Shown piece after piece: positions 12,935-15,838 of a DNA stretch of 55,924 bases (positions within the stretch are counted from its first letter, which is position 1; every line of letters starts with the position of its first letter). The position numbers and the translations under genes are program-made. The DNA is taken from contig JAKFXR010000016.1 in NCBI GenBank assembly GCA_021731285.1, positions 1 to 55,924 of the forward strand, read 5' to 3'. Under the pieces are notes generated by a model, which saw only the letters and a program-made list of their open reading frames with translations, did no database searches and was not told the origin of the DNA. The DNA comes from Polaromonas sp. GTDB taxonomy: Bacteria; Pseudomonadota; Gammaproteobacteria; Burkholderiales; Burkholderiaceae_C.

Positions 12935-14290
12935 ATGGCAAAAAAAATCGGCGCAATTGCACTGCTGTGTCTGGCCTGGACGCTGGTAGCGGCCGCGCCT
13001 GCCGATGACGTGAAGGCCCTGCTTGAACAAGGCAAGGACAAAGAAGCCTATGAGGCCGGCAAAGCGACGCCCGACGCCCTGGGCACGCCCCTCTTCGACT
13101 TTTATTTCGGCATCGCTGCACTCAACGCGGGGGTTCCAGGCGAGGGCGTGCTTGCGCTGGAGCGCTACCTGCTTCAGTTTCCGGACAACCGGTCGGCCCA
13201 GTTCCAGCTTGCACGCGGCTATTTCATCCTCGGCGAAGATCAGCGCGCGAGGGAAGAATTTGCCGGGCTCTCGGCAGCAGCCACCGGATCCGAGCTGGAG
13301 AACGTCAACCAGTTCCTCGACGCGATTCGGGCCCGTGAGTCACGCTACAAACCAACCTCTTCGGCATTTTTTGAAATCGGCCGCGGCTACGACAGCAACA
13401 TCAACAGCGGAATCCGTAGCGGCCAGGTCGCCGGTCTGCCGCTGGGGTTTCTGGTCCTGCCGGGGCAGTCATCCGAAAGGCAATCCGACTCTTTCCGCAC
13501 GGTGTCCGCTGGCTTGCAAGGCGTCTATCCGGTCGCCCCGGGCGTGGCCCTGTACGCCGGCGGGTTGTTCACCGCGCGCAGTCATTTCAAGCACACCAGC
13601 GACGTCTTCGACCAGCACATGCTTGCCCTCCAGGGTGGCATCTCACTGCTGGAGGGCCGCAACCTGTACCGCCTGGGTGTGGACGTCGCCAGCCTGTCTG
13701 TGGACAACCAGCAGTACCTGTCCCTGCGCACCCTCGTCGGTGAATGGCAATACCAGAGCGACCAATACAACCGCTTTTCCCTCTCGGCCCAACACTCCCG
13801 GCAGACCTATCACAACATCAATACCTTCCTGGACATAGACAAGACTTTCCAGGTGAATTCAGGCGCCGATATCAGAAACAGCGGACTGGCGAGCCTGACC
13901 GGTGCGTGGACCCGAACGCTCACCCATCCCTGGAACCCGGTGTTCACTACCAGCCTGAACGTGGGCAGCGAGAGGAACCGCCGTGAGCGACCAGACCTTT
14001 CACGCGAAATCTGGGGCGCGCGCTTGACGGTCGTCATCCAGCCGCAGCCCAAGTGGACGGTAGGCAGCGGCCTGAGCTACCAGGAAAGCCGGTATATCAG
14101 CGATTTCGCCACCGCCATCCCGCCACGGCGAGACCAGTTTTACGCGCTTGATCTTTCCGCCGCTTATGCGCTGGATCGCAACTGGTCCCTGCGCGGCGAG
14201 TACCAGCATGTCAATCAAAATGCCAATATCGGCTTTTATTCCTATACGCGTGAGTCGTTTGCGCTCAAACTGCGCTACGACTTCAAATAA
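12935..14290 (+). CDS. TPR plus outer-membrane beta-barrel protein, DUF560/Slam-like
   Basis: 451 residues. The ATG at 12935 follows GAGGGG, and an ORF extension to 12776 lacks a signal peptide. Signal peptide 1-20, TPR-like helices about 47-113 (PLFDFYFGIAALNAG, AQFQLARGYFILGEDQRA), then a beta-rich C-terminal half beginning FEIGRGYDSNINSG (146-159). The GYDSNIN signature at the TPR-barrel junction and alternating aromatic strands to the final LKLRYDFK match DUF560/Slam proteins, the outer-membrane channels of type XI secretion that move cargo to the cell surface. It lies 12 bases before the FecR-domain gene and is evidently co-transcribed. Assignment is by architecture, without a profile search. 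Confidence 0.72.
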   Translation: MAKKIGAIALLCLAWTLVAAAPADDVKALLEQGKDKEAYEAGKATPDALGTPLFDFYFGIAALNAGVPGEGVLALERYLLQFPDNRSAQFQLARGYFILGEDQRAREEFAGLSAAATGSELENVNQFLDAIRARESRYKPTSSAFFEIGRGYDSNINSGIRSGQVAGLPLGFLVLPGQSSERQSDSFRTVSAGLQGVYPVAPGVALYAGGLFTARSHFKHTSDVFDQHMLALQGGISLLEGRNLYRLGVDVASLSVDNQQYLSLRTLVGEWQYQSDQYNRFSLSAQHSRQTYHNINTFLDIDKTFQVNSGADIRNSGLASLTGAWTRTLTHPWNPVFTTSLNVGSERNRRERPDLSREIWGARLTVVIQPQPKWTVGSGLSYQESRYISDFATAIPPRRDQFYALDLSAAYALDRNWSLRGEYQHVNQNANIGFYSYTRESFALKLRYDFK

Positions 14291-14302
14291 TGGAGGCTCA
14301 TC

Positions 14303-15838
14303 ATGAAGATGACCAGCATGGCCGCCGCCGCTTTGTTTGCCGTGCTTTCAGCCGGGCTGCATGCGGCCCCAGCCGGAAAGATACTTGCCGTCGCCGGTGA
14401 CGCCACGCTGGCCCGGGCCGGACGGCAGATGCCGCTGCAGGCGGGTGCCCTGGTTGAGAGCGGGGATATCCTTGAGGTTGGCGATCGCAGCAGCCTGCAA
14501 GTGCGGTTCACCGATGAATCCGTGGTGGCGCTTCGCGCCAACAGCCAATTCAGGATTGAAGACTACAAGTTCGACAAAAGCGCCGACTCCGACCGCTCCA
14601 TTCTGGGATTGCTCAAAGGCGGCATGCGCACCATCACCGGCCTGATAGGCAAGGCCAATCAGAAGAACTACGCGGTACGCACTTCCACCGCCACCATCGG
14701 CATCCGCGGCACCCACTTCAGCGTGGTGTCGTGCAACAACGATTGCCGCAACCCGGACGGAACGCAGGGCGCCAATGGCACCTTTGGCGCCGTCACCGAC
14801 GGGCGCATCACGGTCTCCAACGAAAGTGGTCAGCGCGAATTTGGCCAGCAGGACTTTTTCCACGTTCCTACCGCCGCTTCCGCCCCGGTTCGTTTGCTCG
14901 CCCCTCCGGCGATTTTGAACGACCGCAGCCCGGGGACGCGCGGCCGCAGCCCAACCGGCGAAGCGCCCGGCTCCGCCACTGGTTCGGCCCAGGCGCGGGA
15001 TGGCGATGGCACCAACACGCGGACATCCACCTCCCCGCAACTGACCGAACAAACGGCACCGGTCACCCAGCTGATCTCCCCGGTGACGCGCGTTTCTTCT
15101 ACCGATTTGCCCAGTGTTGTTTACAGCGGAGGTAGCAGCAGCGGGATCACAGTGCTCGAAACCCGTCTGGGCAACAACTCCACGGCGATAGAGGCCAACG
15201 CCAGAAATTACAGCGTTCTTGAGCTTCGCAATGAGGTGTCGGAGGTCAGCGGAGCCCTGTTCAACAATGCTGCCAGCCTGGCCAGCGCTTTTCGCTCGAT
15301 ACGTGCTGTCGGTGGCAATGACGCCGCCGGAGTCTATTGGATGTATGAGTCACCCAATGCTGGTTCAGCCGCCAATCGGCAGCTGGGCTCGCACCACGCC
15401 TGGGGTGACACGCCCAAGGTCCAGTTGCCCGGCGCCGGCACGGCCCAGTACAACTTCGTCGGAGGAACCACGCCTACAGACAATTTTGGCCGCTCCGGAA
15501 CCTTTTCGGGCGGCAATCTGCTCATGAATTTCGGCGCGCGCACTGTCACCACCCCCACCATGTCGCTTACCTTCACCACCCAGGGCAGCGTGGGAGCGGT
15601 GACCTACACCCTCAGCTCGGCAGTATTGCCAATGGGCGGAGGCCCCCATTCCGTCACCACCACCACCACATCCTGTCTTCCCTCCGCATGCGCAGGAACC
15701 CCCACGGGTTCGTTCAATGGCCGGTTCGTGGGTGCTACCTTGCAAGGCTACGCCGCAGCCATCACTGCGGGCACCACCGCATTGGGTTCGGGGCAGGCCA
15801 ACACCGCTGGATTGGTTGCCGGCTTCGCCAGGCAGTAG
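14303..15838 (+). CDS. Secreted FecR-domain protein with a C-terminal barrel-like domain
   Basis: 511 residues with a type-I signal peptide (cleaved after LHA-AP, no lipobox). FecR domain about 48-145: VESGDILEVGDRSSLQVRFTD, then YAVRTSTATIGIRGTHF. A low-complexity S/T/G/P linker follows (about 195-275). The C-terminal region is glycine- and threonine-rich, with alternating strands ending GSFNGRFVGATLQGY (469-483). That end resembles the small barrel domains of TbpB-like type XI cargo. Two close cysteine pairs (C144/C148 and C458/C463) could form disulfides. There is no transmembrane helix, so it is not a classical FecR anti-sigma regulator. GGAGG precedes the start, and the gene is 12 bases after the DUF560-like channel. 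Confidence 0.75.
   Translation: MKMTSMAAAALFAVLSAGLHAAPAGKILAVAGDATLARAGRQMPLQAGALVESGDILEVGDRSSLQVRFTDESVVALRANSQFRIEDYKFDKSADSDRSILGLLKGGMRTITGLIGKANQKNYAVRTSTATIGIRGTHFSVVSCNNDCRNPDGTQGANGTFGAVTDGRITVSNESGQREFGQQDFFHVPTAASAPVRLLAPPAILNDRSPGTRGRSPTGEAPGSATGSAQARDGDGTNTRTSTSPQLTEQTAPVTQLISPVTRVSSTDLPSVVYSGGSSSGITVLETRLGNNSTAIEANARNYSVLELRNEVSEVSGALFNNAASLASAFRSIRAVGGNDAAGVYWMYESPNAGSAANRQLGSHHAWGDTPKVQLPGAGTAQYNFVGGTTPTDNFGRSGTFSGGNLLMNFGARTVTTPTMSLTFTTQGSVGAVTYTLSSAVLPMGGGPHSVTTTTTSCLPSACAGTPTGSFNGRFVGATLQGYAAAITAGTTALGSGQANTAGLVAGFARQ

Follow-up and report, generated by a model that had tools for sequence, protein, structure and literature searches.

ORF1 and ORF2, two open reading frames (ORFs) arranged head to tail on the + strand of contig JAKFXR010000016.1 of Polaromonas sp. 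(assembly GCA_021731285.1), probably form a type XI-like secretion unit consisting of an outer-membrane channel and a secreted FecR-domain protein. They lie in a stretch of 55,924 nucleotides, which is called the window in the following. The pair represents a member of a widespread, apparently unreported type XI variant. Its anatomy is well supported by the gene pairing, by the predicted folds and by the profile homology that links relatives of either partner with type XI components, as well as by the absence of a lipobox and the co-inheritance of two paralogous pairs, while export of the C-terminal lobe, the direction of this export and the place and role of the FecR domain are predictions. 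A preliminary description of the window had noted the two ORFs, the gap of 12 nt between them and the FecR domain, and these observations were confirmed overall. Its reading as a type XI pair is supported by the conserved adjacency of the two genes and by reciprocal profile matches to known cargos, with export as the predicted part.

The channel protein encoded by ORF1 combines a tetratricopeptide repeat (TPR) region with a beta-barrel. Its structure model (mean predicted local distance difference test, pLDDT, of 87.7) contains seven helices at residues 22-136, which are TPR folds by structure match, and DSSP assigned 14 long strands at residues 141-450 plus two short ones, in agreement with the TPR plus 14-strand barrel predicted for this gene. 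NilB and the DUF560 family have been described with 14 strands and seven helices, and the PgaA barrel with 16 strands, in PMC8406197. The GYDSNIN junction noticed before occupies residues 151-157, where the barrel starts; its residues G151, D153 and N155 are invariant across 53 aligned channel sequences and N157 is kept in 90% or more of them. In two sets of aligned channels, both including the window channel, the SlipAM model (PF04575) matched 14/17 (E<=0.1) and 47/53 (E<=0.01) sequences with the window channel among the misses, whereas TPR_Slam matched 12/17 and 18/53 and TPR_16 matched 16/17 and 48/53. The paralogous channel on contig 17 of the source genome reaches 47.7 bits with SlipAM at a cut-off of 22. 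Searches with phmmer against the PDB returned nothing for the window channel, and a profile of the channel family matched PDB chains in the TPR region, among 60 of 80 matches listed.

The partner protein encoded by ORF2, referred to as the cargo, carries the announced FecR domain (PF04773, 46.5 bits, residues 57-141). Its N terminus (MKMTSMAAAALFAVLSAGLHAAPAG) reads as a signal peptide of the signal peptidase I type, without lipobox and without a nearby Cys, hence the earlier view of a secreted, non-lipidated protein is retained on inspection by eye. Among 125 FecR ORFs of the fetched loci (designated by L numbers; at least seven contigs are counted twice), the lipobox pattern hit six, none of which read as a lipoprotein. 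Domain-wise fold comparison (VIA) of the C-terminal lobe, residues 277-511, gave matches to TbpB, haemophilin, HphA, HpuA, fHbp and NHBA. HpuA is presumably a type XI cargo, and NHBA has the same barrel fold as such cargos. TbpB, fHbp and haemophilin/HrpC are described as tested type XI cargos in PMC12282271. The TbpB-like C-terminal lobe, for which an eight-strand barrel had been predicted, was recovered at the level of a fold match. The assumption that FecR replaces the usual head of a cargo was not upheld, because haemophilin aligned nearly full-length to residues 279-511, which indicates that the handle is present and that FecR is an added N-terminal module.

The homology of the lobe is more visible in relatives of the window cargo. 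The NCBIfam model slam_lipo ('Slam-dependent surface lipoprotein') matched 2/35 cargos, both at the C-terminus (L145 with 3.3e-9, L182 with 5.8e-6), and gave 5.7e-4 for L180, a longer relative outside these 35; the TbpB_B_D model matched L145 with E 0.0019. A hidden Markov model (HMM) built from 11 C-termini of canonical cargos was run over 4750 ORFs of the fetched loci. Its matches at E<=1 were limited to eight canonical ORFs, most of which had served to train it, a fragment of 103 aa and 13/125 FecR ORFs, on which the matches fall in the lobe regions. Reciprocally, an HMM built from 138 FecR-cargo lobes detected at E<0.01 only four non-FecR ORFs among the 4750. Two of them are canonical cargos, both matched with 2.9e-7 and one identified by Pfam as HphA, and the other two belong to a single SlipAM-FecR locus. 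As to the two window proteins themselves, neither showed a SlipAM or TbpB domain in Pfam and NCBIfam searches, phmmer against the PDB matched the cargo only with Scabin (E>=0.37), and the lobe profile was without any PDB match at E<=10.

The pairing of channel and FecR protein is conserved. The channel was present in 16/20 regions chosen by hand among the hits of a search, paralogue included. In the channel-profile sample (the best 80 of 135 loci, GTDB genomes), 76/80 loci have a FecR ORF of the same orientation no more than 600 nt downstream; of the four exceptions, three (L143, L163, L195) border on a contig end, and FecR is found about 2 kb off in L174. The query alignment behind this sample consisted of channels initially detected next to FecR, a bias that is absent from an independent sample, for which SlipAM was searched in 274 genomes of the class. 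In this search 28 genomes gave a match and 38 places were listed, of which 35 loci were taken, leaving out that of the source genome and two short fragments from a single genome. Channel and FecR are adjacent on one strand in 18/35 of these loci (with FecR upstream in L110), and L108 holds both in fragments. The pair is absent in 16/35, of which eight carry a canonical-lobe ORF and several others represent sub-threshold or broken SlipAM matches. On a tree with 109 labelled channels, three changes of the FecR label were counted compared to 12.5 in shuffles, and one origin of the FecR-linked channels is neither shown nor rejected (approximately unbiased test, p-AU 0.068). This tree was filtered on the barrel part to exclude glycosyltransferases caught by their TPRs; three contig-end channels carried no label in it. 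It does not contain the channels of L035-L052 and L054, of which at least seven are, judged by length, duplicate contigs of L119-L198, the rest, L036 included, being unused. Four genomes harbor two types of the pair, and channel and cargo follow the same type, with identities of 56-88% within and 26-31% between types for the channels, and of 51-80% and 28-33%, respectively, for the cargos. In the source genome, which is incomplete (~4.0 Mb, 169 contigs, 88% complete), the family channel profile finds only two channels, in the window and on contig 17, and a FecR gene is situated directly downstream of both. Three FecR-domain hits were obtained in this genome; the third protein (L003:1294-2013, 239 aa) is a weak match distant from both channels. 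L171, from a record titled Klebsiella pneumoniae metagenome-assembled genome (MAG), holds a pair that resembles those of environmental Betaproteobacteria, and the label may be wrong.

Several observations weigh against a type XI assignment of the window pair. The window channel had no SlipAM match in Pfam at E<=1, the sequence match to the previously proposed DUF560/SlipAM family being shown by the paralogue and most aligned sequences, and a solved Slam structure is missing among the structural matches listed for it. The cargo model is of modest quality (mean pLDDT 71.8, predicted template modelling score 0.50). At E<=1e-3, Foldseek gave six matches for it, four TbpB and two anti-sigma (FecR-fold) chains, and the TbpB alignments span the whole cargo model with a root-mean-square deviation (rmsd) of 19-24 and a template modelling (TM) score of about 0.2; therefore, only the domain-wise VIA matches carry weight. 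The lobe also lacks a sequence match in Pfam; the barrel-like C-terminus noted earlier matches type XI cargo structures by fold. Comparison of FecR-cargo lobes with canonical lobes by hhalign reached a probability of 35% (P 4e-4), compared to 0.2% for the FecR-head control. TbpB_B_D matched 1/15 lobes with E 0.19, and the scores of slam_lipo (cut-off 80 bits) and TbpB_B_D on FecR cargos are all below the curated cut-offs. The canonical-cargo HMM reaches only 13/125 FecR ORFs and does not match the window cargo at E<=1, while the FecR-lobe HMM reaches just 2/8 canonical cargos. Moreover, a lobe is carried by 101/125 FecR ORFs and was not found in 24/125, some of which are cut or seemingly too divergent. 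The partners in L172, L175, L181, L101 and L102 look like FecR alone, and the L036 channel is 43% identical to that of the window, yet its FecR partner has another C-terminus (L036:5577-6845) with neither a lobe match nor a Pfam match beyond FecR. Therefore, the constant partner of the channel is FecR, not the lobe, which speaks for a role of FecR at the channel itself.

Compared with the type XI channels Slam1/2, NilB and HrpB, the window channel is alike in the periplasmic TPR region of ~140 residues, the 14-strand barrel and the adjoining cargo gene. It differs in that it does not reach the Pfam model, that its partner is a FecR protein instead of a lipoprotein or free haemophilin, and that its host is an environmental betaproteobacterium. 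The predicted C-terminal handle and barrel lobe of the cargo resembles that of type XI cargos by fold, and by the reciprocal profiles of its relatives, whereas FecR and linker replace the lipid anchor and up to four lobes occur in relatives. A mechanism can be proposed in which both proteins would cross the inner membrane via Sec signal peptides and the ORF1 product would reside in the outer membrane with its TPRs in the periplasm. The channel would then recognise the handle-barrel lobe of ORF2 and pass it unfolded to the cell surface, as is the model for Slam1 with TbpB and for HrpB with its haemophilin. We infer this export from what is known of type XI secretion, where a C-terminal barrel is reported to direct the cargo (PMC12282271) and unfolded TbpB to pass through Slam1 (PMC9090332). 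The FecR domain is located N-terminally at the position of the lipid anchor of canonical surface cargos, joined by a long, probably flexible linker. We favour a role as periplasmic module that may hold or gate the exported lobe at the channel, which we consider about equally probable as export of the whole protein.

According to the former idea, which we regard as possible rather than probable, FecR would be a retention plug folded on the periplasmic side, at the channel end that carries the TPRs, while the linker runs through the barrel and tethers the exported lobe, so that the cargo would be anchored without lipid in the style of LapA-type retention. In this regard, FecR occupies the place of the lipid anchor, no lipoprotein was recognised among the 125 FecR ORFs by the lipobox pattern and reading of its hits, and the median linker comprises 72 residues (70 cargos, rough rule). 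The retention_LapA model (NCBIfam NF033682) matched the FecR region in 35/35 cargos (E<=0.1, best 8.4e-11) and none of three anti-sigma FecRs (E. coli FecR, L217 and L219) at E<=1. The FecR fold also overlaps with the 'cell surface anchoring domain' 5ix9, which we take to be the anchor domain of an ice-binding adhesin, over 61 columns (rmsd 1.1, target TM 0.74, E 0.013). However, this weak likeness covers about 60 residues, the window cargo scores 18.4 bits at a cut-off of 50 bits, and the 13 scores listed for channel-linked cargos and FecR-only partners are all under 40 bits. The model matches 7/8 other FecR proteins as well, which are neither single-lobe cargos nor anti-sigma proteins (the exception is L003), and L049, L050 and L052 are matched yet show no channel in the fetched region; judged by sequence, the LapA-retention likeness is a feature of the wider secreted FecR class. 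Sites of the type [PTA]AAG, presumably the LapG cleavage motif, occur up to 150 aa past FecR in only 13/125 FecR ORFs, and release of the cargo by LapG was rejected on this rarity despite a LapG-type peptidase being encoded in the source genome. Furthermore, the cargo does not belong to type I secretion, and FecR-only partners cannot be covalent tethers. The other idea, to which we give the same tentative standing, is that the whole protein including FecR is exported and displayed or released, with FecR acting as surface binding domain. The FecR-domain protein Lsa33 of Leptospira, a putative lipoprotein, is an apparent surface adhesin according to PMC3444417, and the Lsa33 and LipL45 models match 33/35 and 34/35 cargos, respectively, all having FecR on a secreted or surface protein. 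Likewise, soluble haemophilins are reported to be exported by type XI channels (PMC12282271). However, the window protein would have no anchor, whereas Lsa33 is described as a predicted lipoprotein (PMC3444417). The same precedent corrects the earlier suggestion that a FecR head as cargo would be a new use of this domain.

It is improbable that the TPR-barrel protein is instead a polysaccharide exporter like PgaA/BcsC/PelB or EpsL with FecR as periplasmic accessory. BcsC and PelB are its top Foldseek matches (E 4e-12 to 1e-10), EpsL is matched with E 3e-5, and genes for a family 25 glycosyltransferase and an O-antigen ligase are located upstream of the pair on the opposite strand. However, the EpsL match amounts to 23 of 275 bits, the channel model has 14 strands compared to the 16 of PgaA, SlipAM matches most aligned channels, the partner lobes have the type XI cargo fold, and no polysaccharide synthase appeared among the 25 families listed of 115 (88 of 132 neighbours scanned). 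Even less can be said for a FecI-FecR type of signalling with the channel as receptor, which we regard as highly unlikely. The FecR fold is present; in contrast to FecR/PupR anti-sigma regulators, however, the cargo is secreted, begins with a signal peptide and lacks any cytoplasmic anti-sigma part. The anti-sigma domain DUF4880 (PF16220) was not found in the source genome at its 88% completeness, and the immediate neighbours, the only ones looked at in this respect, include neither a sigma factor nor a TonB receptor, as had been pointed out before. The coordinates of the probable type XI-like unit are compiled in Table 1.

Table 1. Positions of the channel-FecR gene pair and its parts in the window.
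Feature	Position	Strand	Remark
ORF1, channel, related to SlipAM/DUF560; predicted outer-membrane TPR and 14-strand beta-barrel protein	12935..14290	+	451 aa
TPR region, predicted periplasmic, seven helices, residues 22-136	12998..13342	+	structure model
14-strand barrel, residues 141-450	13355..14284	+	structure model
GYDSNIN motif at TPR/barrel junction, residues 151-157	13385..13405	+	alignment
Intergenic gap, 12 nt, with GGAGG-like ribosome-binding site	14291..14302	+	read from sequence
ORF2, cargo, predicted secreted and non-lipidated; FecR, linker and TbpB/haemophilin-like lobe	14303..15838	+	511 aa
FecR fold region, residues about 25-200	14375..14902	+	Pfam FecR core 57-141 = 14471-14725
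Linker, low confidence, probably disordered, residues 208-279	14924..15139	+	pLDDT under 50
Handle and beta-barrel lobe, type XI cargo fold, residues 277-511	15131..15835	+	structure match

Regarding the surroundings of the pair, the ORF directly downstream was read by eye as phosphoenolpyruvate carboxykinase. The closest channels to that of the window, in the channel-profile sample, come from Polaromonas MAGs (76% identity), and the FecR protein of contig 17 gave no match when searched against plasmids. Cargo size varies among the relatives: two to four lobes were counted in 28/125 FecR ORFs with an earlier lobe model, and giant FecR cargos (1305-1570 aa), each with four lobes in tandem, are encoded at L160:6285-10997, L044:5338-9792, L148:6300-10571 and L125:6513-10430. 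Lobeless FecR proteins beside SlipAM-type channels are found at L172:6276-7121, L175:3552-4439, L181:6292-7113 and L101:3217-3969; those of L172, L175 and L181 have short tails that resemble each other and terminate in Val-Phe. In L113, lobe ORFs without FecR (471-1130 and 1687-1950, - strand) lie downstream of a SlipAM-FecR pair, as if cargo and FecR had become individual genes. In 13 loci, the gene of the FecR cargo is followed in the same orientation by one for a family 41 glycosyltransferase, and this family accounts for 10 of the 88 scanned neighbours; those at L144:7788-9938, L129:7726-9861, L131:7766-9676 and L147:7844-10021 bear TPRs by Pfam. The order of FecR and glycosyltransferase genes recalls operons such as HMW1ABC, in which adhesin, exporter and glycosyltransferase are encoded together. 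Glycosylation of the linker was rejected as explanation, since its Ser plus Thr content is not higher at glycosyltransferase loci (0.11, n=5, compared to 0.19, n=65).

The combination of FecR with type XI secretion, T11SS (type XI secretion system) or surface lipoprotein assembly modifier was not found in the searched PubMed Central (PMC) literature; supplements, UniProt and InterPro were outside this search, hence tables may list the pairing. The term FecR is absent from the main text of PMC12282271 and PMC8406197, none of the roughly ten published cargo architectures treated in the former contains FecR, and neither a link of FecR to 'retention module' nor a paper on 5ix9 was found in the searched PMC literature. 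In the paper naming type XI secretion, nine of ten channel-family clusters are stated to lack a characterised member, and 'as-yet-unknown cargo' is expected (PMC8406197); a later survey reports the usual barrel cargos next to just 8 of 145 marine loci of cluster 3 (PMC12282271). The channel-FecR pair recurs in many related bacteria, which hints at the cargo of a little understood part of the type XI family. On a tentative view, a large environmental branch of type XI channels might export non-lipidated proteins with a periplasmic FecR domain as plug, tether or sensor, so that one to four exported lobes would remain on the cell with no need of a lipid and might report, or be gated, through FecR. 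With the conserved pair, a wide range of bacteria from soil and water obtains a cargo candidate that can be tested. FecR, known as sigma-factor regulator, gains a second setting, which may offer a possible route to the cell-surface retention of proteins without a lipid anchor.

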